Part shown: positions 12,605-24,289 of the stretch, in pieces
How positions within the stretch are numbered: the stretch's first letter is position 1
Layout of the letters: each line of letters begins with the position of its first letter
Assembly (NCBI GenBank): GCA_018653365.1
Contig: JABIAG010000001.1
Location: 698,586-735,590, forward strand
Reading direction: 5' to 3'
DNA length: 37,005 nucleotides
Source of the DNA: Candidatus Woesearchaeota archaeon
Lineage (GTDB): Archaea > Nanobdellota > Nanobdellia > Woesearchaeales > JABIAG01
The notes under the pieces: generated by a model
Seen by the model: only the letters and a program-made list of their open reading frames with translations
The model's database searches: none
What the model was told of the DNA's origin: nothing
Position numbers and translations under genes: made by a program

Positions 12605-13698
12605 TCAAGGATGATAATTTTTTTCATAATACTCAGTATTTTGTTTCAATGCCTTTCCCAGTTTATTCCTAATCCCCTGATCAAAAAAATCAAAATCAAC
12701 CGCTTTACGCTTAAACCATTTCGTATTATGACCCCCATCCCACTTACAAAGACTAGCTGAAACCGCACGTGAAAACGATTTTAGCGCCCCACTTAATCTT
12801 TTTAAATTTTCAAATATTTTTTTAACTTGTTTAGGAGACCTTTTAGAAGGATTAAACCTCAAATCATTACCTGCTTTTGAAACCAAACGTCGTTGTCTAT
12901 CCAATCTATCAAATAAATTATTAAAACCATTAACGAACACACTACTGGACCAAGACTTCCCGTCCTCATTACGGTCTGATCTAAAAAAGACTTCCCGTCC
13001 TCATTACGGTCTGATCTAAAAAATTCATCAAACCAAACAACACCATGTGGATTTTTATCAAAATTAATTAACTCATCCTGACTTAAACTACAAACATATT
13101 CCATCCAAGAATAAGTCACAAGAAACCTATACGAGTTGATTAACTTAGCTATATCTTCTTTAATTTCGGACTCAGAATCGGGACTAGACTCTTCAAATTC
13201 AATCAACATTTTCTTAAGGTCTCCCAATATTAGTTCTCCTTTAACAACCAAATCCGACCACGCTTTCATGGGGAATCCACTATCACGATTAGAACTTCTA
13301 AAATCCCCATCACTCACATCAAGTGGATCTTCAAAATAAGTTGTTTTAATCACATGAGCCTTAGCAATATCGCGAATTGGCTCTATTACATCTCTAAGCG
13401 ACTTTATCTTTTCATCCAAACTCTTAGCAAGATCCTTTGAAATTTCTTTTTTTAACTTAGATTTTCTCTTCTTTTCTTTAGAAGTTAATGCTGTTTCATC
13501 CGCTTTCACCAACCCTTTAAACTCCTGGACAACTTGAGCTTTTGGTAAATCATTACCTGCTTTAGAATCAATACTTTTATCATTTTTAAGAGAAACCAAT
13601 GAAGCAACCAGTGCAGCAGCAGAAAGACCTAGAACAAGAGCCTTAACACTCCTTCTAGCCTGCTTAAAGCGCTTAAAAACCTTCCTTAGTTCACCCAT
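12605..13698 (-). pseudogene. Unknown secreted or anchored protein broken by a 35-bp tandem duplication
   Basis: Two overlapping frames (12859-13698 and 12605-12940) join perfectly if one copy of the 35-bp repeat at 12954-13023 is removed: 1059 nt, 352 residues, with no internal stop. The intact product begins with a basic stretch and a hydrophobic segment (about 19-38), then a long helical, charged region. The join reads FRSDRNEDGKSWSSSVF and carries DxNxDGxS, an EF-hand-like half-loop. SKAGNDL occurs twice, at about 45 and again beyond the join. Start at 13698 is 29 bp after TTTAAAT (13721-13727). No family recognised. As written, the protein ends 28 residues or so after the duplication with a changed, hydrophobic tail. 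Assembly error, real mutation or reversible switch cannot be told apart here. Confidence 0.8.
12954..13023. repeat. Exact 35-bp tandem duplication (two copies)
   Basis: Units at 12954-12988 and 12989-13023 are identical (GACTTCCCGTCCTCATTACG...), with two further matching bases before the first copy. 35 is not a multiple of three, so it shifts the reading frame of the surrounding gene. Confidence 0.97.
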
Positions 13699-17331: not shown

Positions 17332-19368
17332 ATGTGCGGAATAATTGGAATCTTTAATTCAAACAAGATTAGAACTCAACTCAAACAAGGAATGCAAGAG
17401 ATGAAGCACCGCGGAAGAGATGGTTCAGGCACGTTTATTAAAGAAAATAATGGAATAGGACATGTACTACATGCAATAGTGAGCAAAGTAAAACAACCAC
17501 TAAATTCCAAACTAGTTGCCAACTGCGAAATATACAACTGGCAATCACATGGAATAAAAGCACGCAATGATGCAGAAATGATTCTAAGATTATTAGAAAA
17601 AGAAGGCATAACTGGAATTGAAAAACTCGATGGAGTGTTTGCTTTAGCATACTGGAATGAAAACAAAATCTACTTGGCTCGAGACATAATCGGAATAAAA
17701 CCCATCTGGTACAGTCACTCAGACACATTTGCCTTCGCATCAGAAAAAAAAGTACTAGAAAAGTTAGGATTCGTAGATGTAATAGAATTAAATCCAAGAA
17801 AAATACTTGTTTATGACATTAAAACAAATGAAATAGACTTCATTGAAAGAGAATTCTTCAAACTAAAAGAAATCAAAAAACGAAAACAAGAAATCAAAAA
17901 AGAACTAAAGAAAAAACTACTTAGCGCACTAGAAAAACGAATTCCAACAAAAAAAGTGGGGGTGTTGTTTTCTGGCGGAATTGACTCAACAATAATTGCA
18001 TATCTACTGAAAAAATGGAAAGTTGATTTCACTTGCTACACCGCTGTACTAGACGAAAAAGGAATGACAAAAGCAGAAGACCTAGACTGGGCAGAAAAAA
18101 TAGCAAAAAAATACAAATTTAAATTAAAAACACGAAAAATTGGAATAAAAGAAGTAGAAAAATACATCAAAAAAATTGTTCCACTAATAGAAGACTCAAA
18201 CGTAGTAAAAGTGGGTGTTGCTTTACCATTTTATTTAGCATGTGAACAAGCCAAAAAAGACGGTGTTAAAGTAATATTCTCTGGACTTGGAAGTGAAGAA
18301 ATATTTGCCGGATATGAAAGACACGAAAAAAGTTCCAACATCAATGAAGAATGCATTTATGGATTGAAACAAATGTACCAACGAGACTTATATCGAGACG
18401 ATGTTGTAACAATGTACCACTCAATAGAACTACGCGTACCTTTTCTAGATAAAGAACTAGTAAATTATGCAACAAGCATTCCAGAAAAATACAAAATCGT
18501 TAAAGGAATAAAAAAACACATATTACGTGAAGTAGCACTAGAGTTAGGACTGGAAAAAGAATTTGCAATGCGAAAGAAAAAAGCAGCACAATACGGATCA
18601 AAATTTGATAAAGCAATAGGAAAACTAGCAAAAAAAGAAGGGAAAAAAAAATCAGAATACTTACGAAAATTCTACCCCTCACACAACCTACGAATTGGAG
18701 CATTATTCTCCTCAGGAAAAGACTCAACATATGCTGTTCATATAATGCAAAAAATGAATTACGAAATCAGTTGCCTAATTACAATCAAATCTGAAAATAA
18801 AGACAGTTACATGTTCCACACCCCGAACATAGAGATGGTGAACTTACAAGCTGAAGCAATGAACATTCCACTAGTAAGTGTTAACACAAAAGGAGAAAAA
18901 GAAAAAGAATTAGAAGATTTAGAGAATGCAATCAAAATAGCAAAAGGAAAATACAACCTAGACGGAATCGTAACCGGGGCATTGTTTTCAACATACCAAA
19001 GAAACAGGATTGAAAAAATATGCGACAAACTCGGACTAAAATGTTTTGCACCCCTCTGGCACAAAAACCAAGAAGAATACATGAAAGAACTAGTAAAATC
19101 CGGCTTTAAGATCCTGATTGTCAAAATTGCTGCCGACGGATTAAGCCAACAGTGGGTTGGAAAAGAATTAGATAACGAAGACATAAAAAAACTTGTTGCA
19201 CTTAATAAAAAAAATAAAATAAACGTGGCATTTGAAGGCGGTGAAGCTGAAACATTAGTTATTGATGGGCCTTGCTTCAATAAACAAATTCTCATTAAGA
19301 AAAGCAAGATAATAACGGAATCTGACTGTATTAGTGAACTAGTAATACAGAACGCAGAGCTAAACTAA
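17332..19368 (+). CDS. Asparagine synthetase fused to diphthine-ammonia ligase (Dph6-like) domain
   Basis: 678 residues in three parts. (1) Residues 1-180: class II glutamine amidotransferase, Cys2 after Met removal, HRGRDGSG and ANCEIYNW (usual G of NGEIYN is C, usual P of RGPDG is R). (2) 205-445: AsnB synthetase with P-loop SGGIDS (214-219), FSGLGSEEIFAGY and LRVPFLDKELVNYA. (3) 453-678: a second PP-loop ATPase, SSGKDS (460-465), with GALFSTYQRNRIE, APLWH and FEGGEAETLVIDGP, signatures of archaeal Dph6. TTTATAT at 17302 gives a leaderless ATG. The fusion could supply glutamine-derived ammonia to diphthamide synthesis on EF-2, or simply be two coupled amidations; which one is unknown. Confidence 0.88.
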   Translation: MCGIIGIFNSNKIRTQLKQGMQEMKHRGRDGSGTFIKENNGIGHVLHAIVSKVKQPLNSKLVANCEIYNWQSHGIKARNDAEMILRLLEKEGITGIEKLDGVFALAYWNENKIYLARDIIGIKPIWYSHSDTFAFASEKKVLEKLGFVDVIELNPRKILVYDIKTNEIDFIEREFFKLKEIKKRKQEIKKELKKKLLSALEKRIPTKKVGVLFSGGIDSTIIAYLLKKWKVDFTCYTAVLDEKGMTKAEDLDWAEKIAKKYKFKLKTRKIGIKEVEKYIKKIVPLIEDSNVVKVGVALPFYLACEQAKKDGVKVIFSGLGSEEIFAGYERHEKSSNINEECIYGLKQMYQRDLYRDDVVTMYHSIELRVPFLDKELVNYATSIPEKYKIVKGIKKHILREVALELGLEKEFAMRKKKAAQYGSKFDKAIGKLAKKEGKKKSEYLRKFYPSHNLRIGALFSSGKDSTYAVHIMQKMNYEISCLITIKSENKDSYMFHTPNIEMVNLQAEAMNIPLVSVNTKGEKEKELEDLENAIKIAKGKYNLDGIVTGALFSTYQRNRIEKICDKLGLKCFAPLWHKNQEEYMKELVKSGFKILIVKIAADGLSQQWVGKELDNEDIKKLVALNKKNKINVAFEGGEAETLVIDGPCFNKQILIKKSKIITESDCISELVIQNAELN

Positions 19369-20472
19369 TTCATACCGCCCTTTACCAACACGATTGATCA
19401 AACCTTTCTTACAATAACGCCAAAGATAAACTGAAGGACTTTGATAACCCAATGAGTTCAAACGCGTTTTGAACTGCTTTCTTGTAAATACGCCTTCCTT
19501 GTCAGCAATAATTTTCATAATCCGCAAACAGAAATACTGAGGATTGCGTGCTTTGATCTTCTTCATTGCGTTCAGAATAGTATTCTTCCTCTTTGATAAA
19601 AAGCCCACTTCTGAAATAAATCGATTTATGTTTGTAGCATAAATAATTAAAACCCAGCGGGCAGTTATTTTTCCTGCTCTAAATCCAGTATGGTTATTAC
19701 GAACCGCCTCGAAGTAAAGTTTTGACTCAATATTAAAATGCTTTTGCAACATTTTCTGCTCATCCAAAAGTAGCACAGGAGGTTTGGATTCAATTGCAAC
19801 ACAGACTTCAGGATTAAACTGCTTAAGTTTGCCCTTAAAAACCCGTTTTGCCAAAGGTAATAAATCTACTTTTACGCAATCATCCACACTTGTATAACGT
19901 GTCAATTTTATGTAACGCTTATGTGATGCAATATCCAGTATTGGACTGCCCTCCGCTTCAAATGCTACACGCAAATAACTTTTAGCTAAACTCTTATTGT
20001 TTTTTATTAAAGCTGGAACAGAAACAGGGAGCGGAATCATATACCGCACCTGTGCTGGAGCTCTTGAACGCTTAAAACCACTATTGTAATCATACATGAT
20101 CTTATTCGCAACATCAACAGAAAGTAAACCCTTAATGCATTCAAAAAACATCTTGTGAAAAAAATCTTCGGGCAAGTTTAAACTGAATTCTGTATTAAAT
20201 GATCCTTCTGAAAGCATTAATGCATATAGTTTAGCATACAATTCCGAATTAAAAACTAAAGGAAATTTTAGTTTAAGATGTTTGGACGATCTTATGTGAT
20301 GTTTAATCCCCATTACCAAGTTTGTTATTTCGCCATAATCAGCATAACGCTTGCACTTTCGTACAGTAACTAACGTTCTATCCTTACTTAACTCAGGAAG
20401 GGGGTTTTTCAATTTTAACTGTAAAGAATCGGGCAAATCCCACCAATTAACTATTAATTCTTCTTCATTCAT
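19360..20472 (-). CDS. Free-standing LAGLIDADG-type protein with C-terminal winged-helix-like domain
   Basis: 370 residues. Two LAGLIDADG-like helices, AKLYALMLSEGS (80-91) and KSYLRVAFEAEGSP (164-177), both end in the acidic-glycine pair used for metal-dependent DNA cleavage; the acids are Glu rather than Asp. INRFISEVGFLSKRKNTIL near 280 is the typical later motif. The last ~60 residues (FCLRIMKIIADKEGVFTRKQF...KGLINRVGKGRYELV) look like a winged helix. It could be an active homing endonuclease, or a domesticated WhiA-like regulator. It does not interrupt an intron or intein here. GGAGG at 20482-20486 is the ribosome-binding site; TATA near 20523-20530. It overlaps the AsnB-Dph6 gene end by 9 nt. 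Confidence 0.8.
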   Translation of the reverse strand: MNEEELIVNWWDLPDSLQLKLKNPLPELSKDRTLVTVRKCKRYADYGEITNLVMGIKHHIRSSKHLKLKFPLVFNSELYAKLYALMLSEGSFNTEFSLNLPEDFFHKMFFECIKGLLSVDVANKIMYDYNSGFKRSRAPAQVRYMIPLPVSVPALIKNNKSLAKSYLRVAFEAEGSPILDIASHKRYIKLTRYTSVDDCVKVDLLPLAKRVFKGKLKQFNPEVCVAIESKPPVLLLDEQKMLQKHFNIESKLYFEAVRNNHTGFRAGKITARWVLIIYATNINRFISEVGFLSKRKNTILNAMKKIKARNPQYFCLRIMKIIADKEGVFTRKQFKTRLNSLGYQSPSVYLWRYCKKGLINRVGKGRYELV

Positions 20473-21041: not shown

Positions 21042-23534
21042 ATGCCTAGAAGAAAAACCAATACAGTTGAAGAAATCATAGAATTTGTACTAGAACATGA
21101 AGGCCCAGATCTGGATGGATGTGCCCACCCAACTAAGAGAAGAGTTATGTTTGCTGAGTTAGATGAGGCAATAACCCACATTCACGAGATGGCACTTCTG
21201 CCGAACTTAAGAACGTATCATTTTAATAGCGTTATGTCGATTTGGAAAACGGATAAAGAATCAGGCAAACCTTTAGCAAGAGAACTTACAGGATTGTTAA
21301 TGGATAGAATGCTACAAAGACACCGCACACTACTAGACGTAATAAAAAATATCAAACAGGAAGATTTCAAAAACGAACAATTCAAATTTGAAACCAAAGA
21401 CGGAACAATACAATATAACTTAAGGGCAATGCTGGGAACTGCGTATGCATCTTCACTAAACGCAGCAGTAATGGACTGGATAACACACAATCCTAATGCA
21501 GAAATAAGAACAGAATACGCAGGAATAAAACCATGGCACTTCGGAAGAGTTCCAAATGGTACGTGGGAAGGGGAAAAAGGAAAACAAAACGCAAGAGAAG
21601 CAACAGGACAACTAATAGCAAAACTACAACAAAGACACGGAACATTACTAGAGGTAATACAACATATTACCTCAGACCACTTCAAAAATGAGCAACTTGA
21701 ATTCACCAACAAAGATGGAACACTACAATACAATTTAGCATCAATGGCACACCACGTTTATCAAGGTTCACCAAGTGCAGCAGTAATAGACTGGATAACA
21801 CACAATCCTAATGCAGAAATAAGAACAGAATACGCAGGAATAAAACCATGGCACTTCGGAATGGCCCCCCTAGGAACATGGAAAGGAAAACAAGGAAAAC
21901 AAAACGCAAGAGAAGCAACAGAATTGTTAATGGCTAGAATGCTACAAAGACACAGCACACTACTAGATGTAATAAAAAACATAAGCCAAGAAGACTTTCA
22001 CAAACCTCTCGAATTCACAAACAAAGACGGAACACTACAACATAACTTAAGGGCAATGCTCCGAATGGCTTATCTGAGTTCACCAAGTGCAGCAGTAATA
22101 GACTGGATAACACACAATCCTAATGCAGAACTAAAAACAGAATACGCAGGAATAAAACCATGGCACTTCGGAATGGCCCCCCTAGGAACATGGAAAGGAA
22201 AACAAGGAAAACAAAACGCAAGACAACTAACCGGACAACTAATAGCAAAACTACAACAAAGACACGGAACACTAATAGAAGTAATAAAAAACATAAGCCA
22301 AGAAGACTTTCGCAAACCGCTCGAATTCACAAACAAAGACGGAACACTAAGGCACAATGCCCAAGCAATGTTTGAAGTCGCCTATAACAGCTCACCAAGT
22401 GCAGCAGTAATAGACTGGATAACACACAATCCTAATGCAGAAATAAGAACAGAATACGCAGGAATAAAACCATGGCACTTTAAAAAATCCCCCCTAAGAA
22501 CATGGAAAGGAAAACAAGGAAAACAAAACGCAAGACAACTAACCGGACAACTAATACAAAAACTACACAAAATATATGGAACATTAACAGATATCATAAC
22601 ACACGTAACGGCGGAGGACTTTCACAAAGAACGACTTGCATTCCAAAATAGAGATGGAGTAATAACCCACACCATTGAATCAGCTTTCTGTGAAGTTTAC
22701 CGAAGTTCACCAAGTGCAGCAATACTGGACTGGATAAAACAGCAACCAGAACGAGTAAGAGCCCAATATTCTTTTGTAAAACCGATACATTTTGTTGGAA
22801 CAGCCCGAACTAGGGCAAGAAGACTGGCAGGAAAACTAAGCCCATATGATTTAAGATCGGTAAAAAAACAAAATACATATGATACTTCAGTATTTGGATT
22901 TAAACAATATCATTCTAGTGATAAAGATGTAATGCGCTGGATCATGGCTGAAGAAGCAATAAAAGTGTTGGGAGATAGAGACGTTAGATATCTGGGCTTG
23001 GAAACCGAACAATTTAGAGGCATATCTGCAGTTTATGACCAACTAAATCTTAATAGTTTTAGATCAACTGTTATTGAAAGAGATCCCAGAGTTTATAATG
23101 CCATGCTAGCGGTGAAACAGAGAGTCCGAAGCAAACCAGGCAAAGCGGTAAGAGGAACCCAGATCATTAACGGCCAATTAGCGGAAGAGGTAAGCAAAAT
23201 ACGAGGGCGAAGATACAATTATGTCAACTATGATTTCCAAGGATTCCTAAGCAAGGGTAATGTGCAGGCAATAGAAACCTTATTTCGAAAGGAATTACTT
23301 ACAAAAAAAGCCATAATTTATGTTACTTTACAAGAAACTCAACTCGCCAAAAGCCGAGCTAAAAAAGCTGGATTTGAAGACCAAGTAAGTGCATTAAATC
23401 AATTAATGCAAGACCAGAGTTCAACACACACCTGTAAACAAATGTTCACCCTAGATTATCAAGGTGGAACTACAGATAGACATAAGACCCCCATGATTGT
23501 TGTAGGTTATGAAGTTACAAGACTTGCAGCATAA
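21042..23534 (+). CDS. Large protein with about five near-identical ~104-residue repeats and a methyltransferase-like C terminus
   Basis: 830 residues. After an N-terminal ~90 residues that contain a diverged half-repeat (TYHFNSVMSIW), units of 104-105 residues repeat; each has an EDFxxxxLxFxNKDGTLQxN helix region, SSPSAAVIDWITHNPNAEI, EYAGIKPWHF and GTWKGKQGKQNAR. The conserved motif starts near residues 147, 252, 356, 460 and 565. Periodic W/F and basic residues suggest a nucleic-acid-binding solenoid; some phage/plant-like Trp repeat families look similar, a guess from memory. Residues ~610-830 differ: YLGLETEQFRG, VIERDPRVYNAM, YVNYDFQGFLSKGN and IIYVTLQET recall a Rossmann methyltransferase, weakly. 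TTATAAA at 21014 gives the start. Acts with the next gene, probably. Confidence 0.7.
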   Translation: MPRRKTNTVEEIIEFVLEHEGPDLDGCAHPTKRRVMFAELDEAITHIHEMALLPNLRTYHFNSVMSIWKTDKESGKPLARELTGLLMDRMLQRHRTLLDVIKNIKQEDFKNEQFKFETKDGTIQYNLRAMLGTAYASSLNAAVMDWITHNPNAEIRTEYAGIKPWHFGRVPNGTWEGEKGKQNAREATGQLIAKLQQRHGTLLEVIQHITSDHFKNEQLEFTNKDGTLQYNLASMAHHVYQGSPSAAVIDWITHNPNAEIRTEYAGIKPWHFGMAPLGTWKGKQGKQNAREATELLMARMLQRHSTLLDVIKNISQEDFHKPLEFTNKDGTLQHNLRAMLRMAYLSSPSAAVIDWITHNPNAELKTEYAGIKPWHFGMAPLGTWKGKQGKQNARQLTGQLIAKLQQRHGTLIEVIKNISQEDFRKPLEFTNKDGTLRHNAQAMFEVAYNSSPSAAVIDWITHNPNAEIRTEYAGIKPWHFKKSPLRTWKGKQGKQNARQLTGQLIQKLHKIYGTLTDIITHVTAEDFHKERLAFQNRDGVITHTIESAFCEVYRSSPSAAILDWIKQQPERVRAQYSFVKPIHFVGTARTRARRLAGKLSPYDLRSVKKQNTYDTSVFGFKQYHSSDKDVMRWIMAEEAIKVLGDRDVRYLGLETEQFRGISAVYDQLNLNSFRSTVIERDPRVYNAMLAVKQRVRSKPGKAVRGTQIINGQLAEEVSKIRGRRYNYVNYDFQGFLSKGNVQAIETLFRKELLTKKAIIYVTLQETQLAKSRAKKAGFEDQVSALNQLMQDQSSTHTCKQMFTLDYQGGTTDRHKTPMIVVGYEVTRLAA
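21315..22800 (+). repeat. Protein-coding tandem repeat array, period 312-315 bp, about five copies
   Basis: The marker TAACACACAATCC recurs at 21481, 21796, 22108 and 22420 (spacings 315, 312, 312) and in altered form at 22735 (315). All spacings are multiples of three. Internal copies share long runs of identical DNA including synonymous sites, so the expansion or gene conversion is recent; the first and last copies have drifted more. Confidence 0.95.
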
Positions 23535-23593
23535 GATTTAATAGTCGAGAAATGCCAAAAAGCTTTATAAGTGGACTGAAAGTTCTAAGAGTT

Positions 23594-24289
23594 ATGACAG
23601 ACGATTACCGACAGGAACTCCTTGAAAGAGGACTGGACTTAACAGGATTTGGAGCAGTGATAGAAGTAACAAATGGTTTACGTGATAAAAGAGGAACATT
23701 TAATCATACAAGAGATCATAAATTAGAACAAGCTGTTTTGTGTCGTGACTACCTAAGACAAACCCTTCAACCCGAAACAAGACTTGATGTGGGAATTGCC
23801 TACTGTACAGATAAAGAAAGATCCCAACGACAACTAACCCCTGACTTTACAATAAAAGCAATTGAATTTGATCTACCCACATTACGATCTGCGCTTGAAA
23901 GCATAACTCTAAACAGAACTTCACGTCAAGAGGTAAGGGTATTGGCAAGAGCAATGCTATTAAATGCTGGTCGAAACTTTCCATTACAAAAATTCTTTGA
24001 ACCAAATGAAGGCCAAACAAAACAGGCAGCAAGAAAAATCGGCATGCCCTTTCGCCAATACATGATAAACCGTACCAAACTTAGAGGAGTTGCAGCAGAA
24101 AGATACTTGTATAATGCCCTAATGCAAAGATTAGATTTTTGTTTGCCTGTTCATGGATTCAAATTTAAAGAGGGGAAAGTTCCAAGAGAGGCAGACCTGG
24201 TAATTGCATGTCACCAGCAAAACTTTTACGATACATTAAGAAATCTAAATCAACAAGGATGCTTTGGCGTAAAAGTTAATGCAGAATAA
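23594..24289 (+). CDS. Unknown partner protein of the repeat gene, 231 residues
   Basis: Start set at the ATG at 23594: TTTATAA at 23564-23570 is exactly 30 bp upstream, while the ATG at 23552 has no promoter at that distance. The repeat gene ends 59 bp earlier on the same strand. No family recognised. It is basic, with several conserved-looking patches: GAVIEVTNGLRDKRGTF, RLDVGIAYCTDKERSQ, and RGVAAERYLYNALMQRLDF...READLVIAC. The last resembles the GxxxE...D/E layout of some nucleases, but no E-x-K follows, so I do not call it one. Cysteines are scattered. Probable function with the repeat protein is unknown. Confidence 0.65.
   Translation: MTDDYRQELLERGLDLTGFGAVIEVTNGLRDKRGTFNHTRDHKLEQAVLCRDYLRQTLQPETRLDVGIAYCTDKERSQRQLTPDFTIKAIEFDLPTLRSALESITLNRTSRQEVRVLARAMLLNAGRNFPLQKFFEPNEGQTKQAARKIGMPFRQYMINRTKLRGVAAERYLYNALMQRLDFCLPVHGFKFKEGKVPREADLVIACHQQNFYDTLRNLNQQGCFGVKVNAE

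Follow-up and report, generated by a model that had tools for sequence, protein, structure and literature searches.

The window analyzed here, a stretch of 37,005 nucleotides from a Candidatus Woesearchaeota archaeon (contig JABIAG010000001.1), carries a gene in which a tandem array of units of about 105 residues is joined to a distinct C-terminal tail, with a second gene close behind it. What such an array might recognize, what the tail might do there, and whether the following gene belongs with it are the questions that this locus raises.

Architecture of the repeat gene

The array gene is present in a single copy and is the sole array in the window's own 1.09-Mb genome (G000; genomes are numbered G and loci L throughout). 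Its parts, together with the gene that follows, are listed below in window coordinates.

21042-23534, plus strand: repeat-methyltransferase gene, 830 aa (open reading frame and translation; relatives found)
21042-21263, plus strand: N-terminal cap, residues 1-74, with EEII..HEGPDL..RAH, which precedes the array in relatives too
21264-21578, plus strand: unit 1, 105 aa (unit alignment)
21579-21893, plus strand: unit 2, 105 aa (unit alignment)
21894-22205, plus strand: unit 3, 104 aa (unit alignment)
22206-22517, plus strand: unit 4, 104 aa (unit alignment)
22518-22829, plus strand: unit 5, the divergent terminal unit, whose end overlaps the modeled tail (unit alignment and unit tree)
22794-23531, plus strand: C-terminal domain with a predicted class I SAM-methyltransferase fold, residues 585-830 (AlphaFold, Foldseek, and invariant residues)
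within 22794-23531, plus strand: tail motifs YLGLE (motif I position), E after β2, and NYDFQG (motif IV position)
23552-24289, plus strand: downstream gene, 245 aa, same strand as the array gene after a gap of 17 bp (open reading frame)

The five units span residues 75 to ≈596 of the protein at spacings of 105, 105, 104, and 104 residues, and the motif KPWHF recurs at residues 163, 268, 372, and 476, with KPIHF at 580 and RTYHF at 57. At the DNA level, Tandem Repeats Finder places 4.0 copies of a 312-nt period at 21314-22571 (score 1477), and direct-repeat families recur at a spacing of 312 to 315 nt, the best pair being 91% identical over 280 nt; this signal is far above chance. DNA identity between units is 71 to 83% for units 1 to 4 and 53 to 64% for unit 5, and the longest identical runs reach 89 nt, in agreement with a preliminary description of about five units of 104 to 105 residues with long identical DNA stretches. 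The same description had singled out KPWHF and basic residues as marks of the units. The motif is indeed found in four places and as KPIHF once, but the net charge of +1 to +7 per unit is a property of the window array, and in several relatives it is about zero or negative. Reading of the translations identified the same N-terminal cap in G233, G051, L076, L083, and L123.

The tail has a methyltransferase fold

The tail was modeled from an alignment of eight rows, comprising the window and loci of related sequences; loci that came from the genome searches did not enter the structure predictions. The resulting AlphaFold model (pLDDT 90.1, pTM 0.88) has alternating helices and strands in the full β1 to β7 order, with a long C-terminal β6/β7 pair as assigned by DSSP. 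A Foldseek search of the PDB returned 702 matches at E ≤ 0.001, of which the best 50 are overwhelmingly SAM methyltransferases at 6 to 14% identity, and the neighbors include several that act on tRNA or rRNA (TYW2, CmoM, MnmM, TrmR, and putative rRNA methylases). Against viral models, the best matches are giant-virus chromodomain proteins and other methyltransferases. The chromodomain-containing proteins in question, from Tetraselmis virus 1 and Hyperionvirus, may themselves hold an unrecognized methyltransferase-like domain. At the sequence level, a search of the PDB gave a weak match to a putative methylase (E 0.035), and PF20553 (Methyltransf_35, putative O-methyltransferase) weakly matched 5 of 11 tail-family members (best E 9e-4), with no scanned member reaching the curated cut-off; neither the 145 genomes searched in the order nor the control genomes contained a match to PF20553.

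Two acidic residues, Glu95 at the end of β2, where class I enzymes contact the ribose, and Asp147 after β4 (tail numbering), are invariant in the eight-row alignment, and the family conserves Y(L/F)GL at the place of motif I, N..D..G at that of motif IV, and a threonine in β5. The glycine-rich motif I (GxGxG), which is frequent but not universal, is absent from the tail alignment and is replaced by Y(L/F)GLE(T/G)xxF, and N(Y/L)D(F/Y/W)xG stands in place of the (D/N/S)PP(Y/F/W) motif IV of the DNA N6/N4 amino-methyltransferases. With neither the canonical motif I nor a (D/N/S)PP(Y/F/W) motif IV, the tail gives no sign of DNA methylation at the level of motifs. On the strength of the model, the tail is confidently assigned a class I SAM-methyltransferase fold with a diverged SAM motif I; SAM binding and catalysis we infer. 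The preliminary reading of this region as weakly methyltransferase-like was correct at the level of the fold, given the AlphaFold model and the Foldseek matches.

Unit number and unit sequence turn over

The number of units varies among relatives, with seven in G233 and L076, six in G255, five in the window and in G010, four in G001, and three in G221. Most units resemble others of the same array more than they resemble units of other species. In the unit tree, the terminal units of the window, G233, and G051 form one clade with support of 100/100, whereas the internal units do not pair one-to-one. The comparison of G233 with G051, which belong to one genus, illustrates the difference in pace, as the tails are 90% identical and the neighboring DUF488 proteins 93%, whereas the best matches between internal units reach 72 to 81%. 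Unit number thus changes and internal units evolve in concert, as the early characterization of the repeats as fast evolving had anticipated. It had further supposed that copy number changed recently; unit number does vary, from three to seven, but synonymous differences of ≈0.3 to 0.4 per site between the window units indicate that most of the duplications there are not very recent. Contig ends interrupt the arrays of G051 and G563, as is typical of repeats in short-read assemblies.

Hypervariable positions are shared between lineages

We aligned 35 units, 98 to 107 residues in length, across arrays. Within arrays, variability is concentrated at alignment columns 57, 61, 62, 65, 66, 69, and 70 and again at columns 115, 116, 122, 124, and 125. 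The 12 most variable columns of G233 were taken as a fixed set and evaluated by permutation on the other arrays, where they were also more variable in the window (p = 0.002), G051 (p = 5e-5), G010 (p = 5e-4), and the bacterial L076 (p = 0.04). A conserved framework with the same hypervariable positions is therefore found in several arrays of independent lineages, both archaeal and bacterial. The variable residues are for the most part small or polar. Ratios of pN/pS are about 0.65 to 1.5 at the variable columns versus 0.2 to 0.5 elsewhere, and values near 1 fit relaxed constraint and diversifying selection equally well.

The AlphaFold model of the repeats is poor (pLDDT 54) and was used for secondary structure only. 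In all three modeled units, this low-confidence model predicts a long helix, a short helix, a β-hairpin, a helix, a tight SP turn, a further helix, and a short helix. It places the first variable cluster on the helix that follows the hairpin, and the second cluster in the loop between HF and TW. Six variable positions of the helix cluster are spaced at i, i+1, i+4, i+5, i+8, and i+9, a pattern that suits one face of the predicted helix, although a helical periodicity test of the variability alone was not significant (p = 0.06-0.48).

No relative of the repeat was found in the PDB or Pfam by profile search, nor in NCBIfam, PHROGs, or PADLOC, and searches of open-access papers yielded no description of the family. 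The C2H2 zinc-finger pattern (CxxC...HxxxH) is absent from the units. Several Pfam entries that matched the repeats (DIP2-like, DinB_2, PsiB, UFC1, Enterotoxin_ST, and others) were rejected, as the matches gave no domain-level stretch or were not common to the units and arose by summation over repeats. By eye, the units also look like homing-endonuclease-associated repeats (PF18780), a likeness that was likewise set aside, as it is unsupported by any Pfam match.

Distribution of arrays and tails

Of 353 genomes in the order, 16 matched a profile of the tail, and widening gave 22 matches among 371 genomes sampled in the phylum; among these, an array stands ahead of the tail only in G000, G051, G233, G001, and G221. 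A profile of the repeat matched eight of the 353 genomes and missed the array of G001. Arrays without the tail occur in G010 and G255. Conversely, G254, G083, and G072 have ordinary HTH domains ahead of the tail, with HTH_23 above cut-off in one of them, and further members of the tail family have other N termini. Scanning genome contigs with the tail profile yielded L070 to L076. Unexpectedly, the last of these (OMIG01000117.1, on a contig labeled Proteobacteria) encodes a protein of 1035 residues made up of the same cap, seven 99-residue units, and the same tail, which is 37% identical to that of the window. The genome that holds it measures 3 Mb and belongs to a group of 46 in which further members occur. 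In another member of the bacterial group, G569, the cap, units, and tail share one 2163-aa open reading frame with SNF2 (66 bits) and Helicase_C domains. Overall, arrays are scattered among DPANN archaea and one bacterial group, with or without the tail. Scanning of viral contigs confirmed no close relative, and none was found in phages and plasmids.

The genes around array loci show no overall conservation. Two sister genes with an HTH domain and the tail lie in operons with a GHKL ATPase, identified by HATPase_c_3 (32.7 bits) in one operon and as a 37% identical protein in the other. At L071 (6765-9681) and L072 (3967-5987), an HTH-methyltransferase gene of the tail family comes first and is followed by a small protein and a GHKL ATPase.

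Several other loci merit separate mention. Three tandem paralogs of a minimal methyltransferase-like family lie on contig C11 of G117 at ≈44781-47994 (L065, L068, and L055), with a fourth on C14. L051, on contig C15 of G195, encodes a methyltransferase-like protein in which HTH segments and an HNH-nuclease-like domain at the end can be recognized by eye. A bacterial protein at L086 (857-3085, minus strand) carries units like those of the arrays, preceded by a hydrophobic N-terminal region rich in Gly and Ala.

The downstream gene and other neighbors

The preliminary description had treated the gene after the array as a possible partner. The open reading frame exists, although it starts at 23552 rather than at 23594 as then given, but its distribution does not support a partnership. 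The gene is absent from every other array locus inspected, including G051. Relatives of it occur in 16 of 353 genomes in the order, and of these only G000 is also among the eight with array matches. The downstream gene is a member of an unlinked, scattered DPANN family, and it does not form a conserved system with the array. Its alignment includes KG...E.Y...L......D, which raised the idea of a PD-(D/E)xK nuclease; there is no conserved ExK motif, and the assignment was dropped.

In G233 and G051, the place of the downstream gene is taken by a DUF488 gene and a spore-photoproduct-lyase-like radical SAM gene. Their reading frames overlap one another and that of the array gene (L026, 6439-7958; L002, 3-1504), which suggests that the operon is conserved and includes a radical SAM protein of the DNA-repair type. 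PADLOC has no family for the array gene or the downstream gene, no nuclease was found linked to array genes, and the neighbors in the window look like ordinary chromosomal genes. Among features elsewhere in the window, a 678-aa frame at 17332-19368 (plus strand) carries a region resembling asparagine synthase (PF00733), together with a glutamine amidotransferase domain, and a diphthamide synthase domain (PF01902), an unusual-looking fusion. At 19360-20472 (minus strand), a 370-aa protein gives sub-threshold matches to LAGLIDADG_3 and an AbiEi-type HTH and is perhaps a degenerate homing-endonuclease relative. A perfect 35-nt tandem repeat of 2.1 copies lies at 12952-13023.

Comparison with known modular systems

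TALE proteins are transcription activators built from two-helix units of 33 to 35 residues that vary at residues 12 and 13. The arrays described here share with them a modular layout, a conserved framework with hypervariable residues at fixed positions, an N-terminal cap, and a divergent terminal unit. They differ in having units of 98 to 107 residues with about ten variable residues instead of two, in showing no sequence relation that we could find, and in carrying a methyltransferase rather than an activator. Multispecific phage C5-methyltransferases and type I HsdS proteins have tandem target-recognition domains, and the attachment of exchangeable recognition modules to a methyltransferase is common to those enzymes and the present proteins. 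Unlike them, the window protein has no C5 or N6/N4 catalytic motifs, and it carries one long homogeneous array instead of one or a few unrelated recognition domains.

The array of PRDM9 varies in unit number, evolves in concert, and is under selection at its contact residues (PMC6116924). It joins a tandem recognition array and a methyltransferase domain in one chain, as the window protein does, and the variable unit number, concerted units, and variable positions also agree. Unlike PRDM9, however, with its 28-residue C2H2 zinc fingers and PR/SET domain, the window protein has units of ≈105 residues that lack zinc ligands and a class I Rossmann fold, and its DNA binding is a proposal. PRDM9 and the TALE proteins are the closest in working logic; by membership, the window protein is neither, as unit length, fold, and enzyme all differ. 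A further likeness concerns the GHKL ATPase (prokaryotic MORC) genes associated with restriction-modification systems (PMC2292703). The two sister tail-family genes beside a GHKL ATPase and the SNF2-type helicase fused in a bacterial array protein recall MORC and paraMORC operons, but no GHKL gene lies beside the array gene of the window and no nuclease was found. The repeats and their combination with the tail match no described family that we searched, although the logic of a modular reader joined to a methyltransferase is itself known.

What the array may recognize

The pattern is that expected of a modular reader joined to a methyltransferase, because the hypervariable positions are shared between arrays and the internal units diverge faster than the tail. 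A modular reader had been suggested at the outset, and the hypervariable pattern fits it; the reader role itself we infer. The SNF2 fusion and the HTH-fused sister proteins point, at the level of sequence, to double-stranded DNA as the preferred candidate ligand. We tentatively favor, as a plausible reading, a gene product that is a methyltransferase guided by sequence to act at DNA, with ligand, SAM binding, catalysis, and role all part of the proposal. In such a protein, the units of ≈105 residues would form a modular DNA-reading array, each contributing the hypervariable residues of one helix face and of the HF-TW loop as contacts, and the tail would work either at that site or on some protein that occupies it. 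As units turn over and the presumed contacts change, the enzyme would be re-aimed, probably in an arms race against mobile DNA or else as a device for self-marking or silencing. Against DNA reading stand the near-neutral units of several relatives, together with a repeat model at pLDDT 54 and empty profile searches that establish no nucleic-acid-binding fold.

The same evidence bears on three other explanations. A restriction-modification-like or silencing defense, in which the array aims a modifying or blocking enzyme at mobile-element DNA and diversification reflects an arms race, would account for the tail-family genes beside GHKL ATPases in two genomes, in the manner of the prokaryotic MORCs, as well as for the SNF2 fusion and the patchy distribution; the lack of an array-linked nuclease, of a PADLOC match, and of anything but ordinary chromosomal neighbors in the window makes it unlikely. 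Proteins with tandem helical repeats are familiar as RNA readers, and several structural neighbors of the tail are tRNA or rRNA methyltransferases, so that the array might instead pick a transcript, a tRNA, or an rRNA for the tail to methylate. The SNF2 fusion and HTH-fused sisters suggest double-stranded DNA, however, and fast turnover within a genus would be unusual for a housekeeping RNA modifier, as would a gene as patchy as this one (eight of 353 genomes by the repeat profile, with G001 missed); we regard an RNA modifier as rather improbable. An array that binds proteins or peptides, for example in cell contact or as a receptor or effector, might suit episymbiotic DPANN archaea, with the variable residues as a protein interface and the tail as an enzyme that methylates proteins or small molecules, or as an inactive scaffold. 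Units that are often near-neutral, the units of L086 behind a Gly/Ala-rich hydrophobic stretch, the tailless arrays of G010 and G255, and the many kinds of substrate methylated by the nearest solved folds speak for such binding. It is at odds with the SNF2 and HTH contexts and with the window protein, in which no secretion or transmembrane segment is apparent by eye, and we consider it about as improbable.

The repeats may possibly, and with more doubt than attaches to the proposed role of the gene, represent a new class of programmable DNA-reading repeat, with units of 98 to 107 residues and about ten variable positions, found in DPANN archaea and a bacterial group and fused to a methyltransferase and once to an SNF2 remodeler. 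It would be a prokaryotic counterpart in logic to PRDM9, with a code that could be derived by comparing arrays; as the variable positions are shared, sequences already available allow a direct test of the recognition hypothesis. An array that reads DNA would add to TALE, zinc-finger, and PPR/PUF repeats a new and independent scaffold for modular recognition, one that nature has joined to a modifying enzyme. For uncultured DPANN archaea, it would provide a rapidly re-aimable epigenetic or defense tool.
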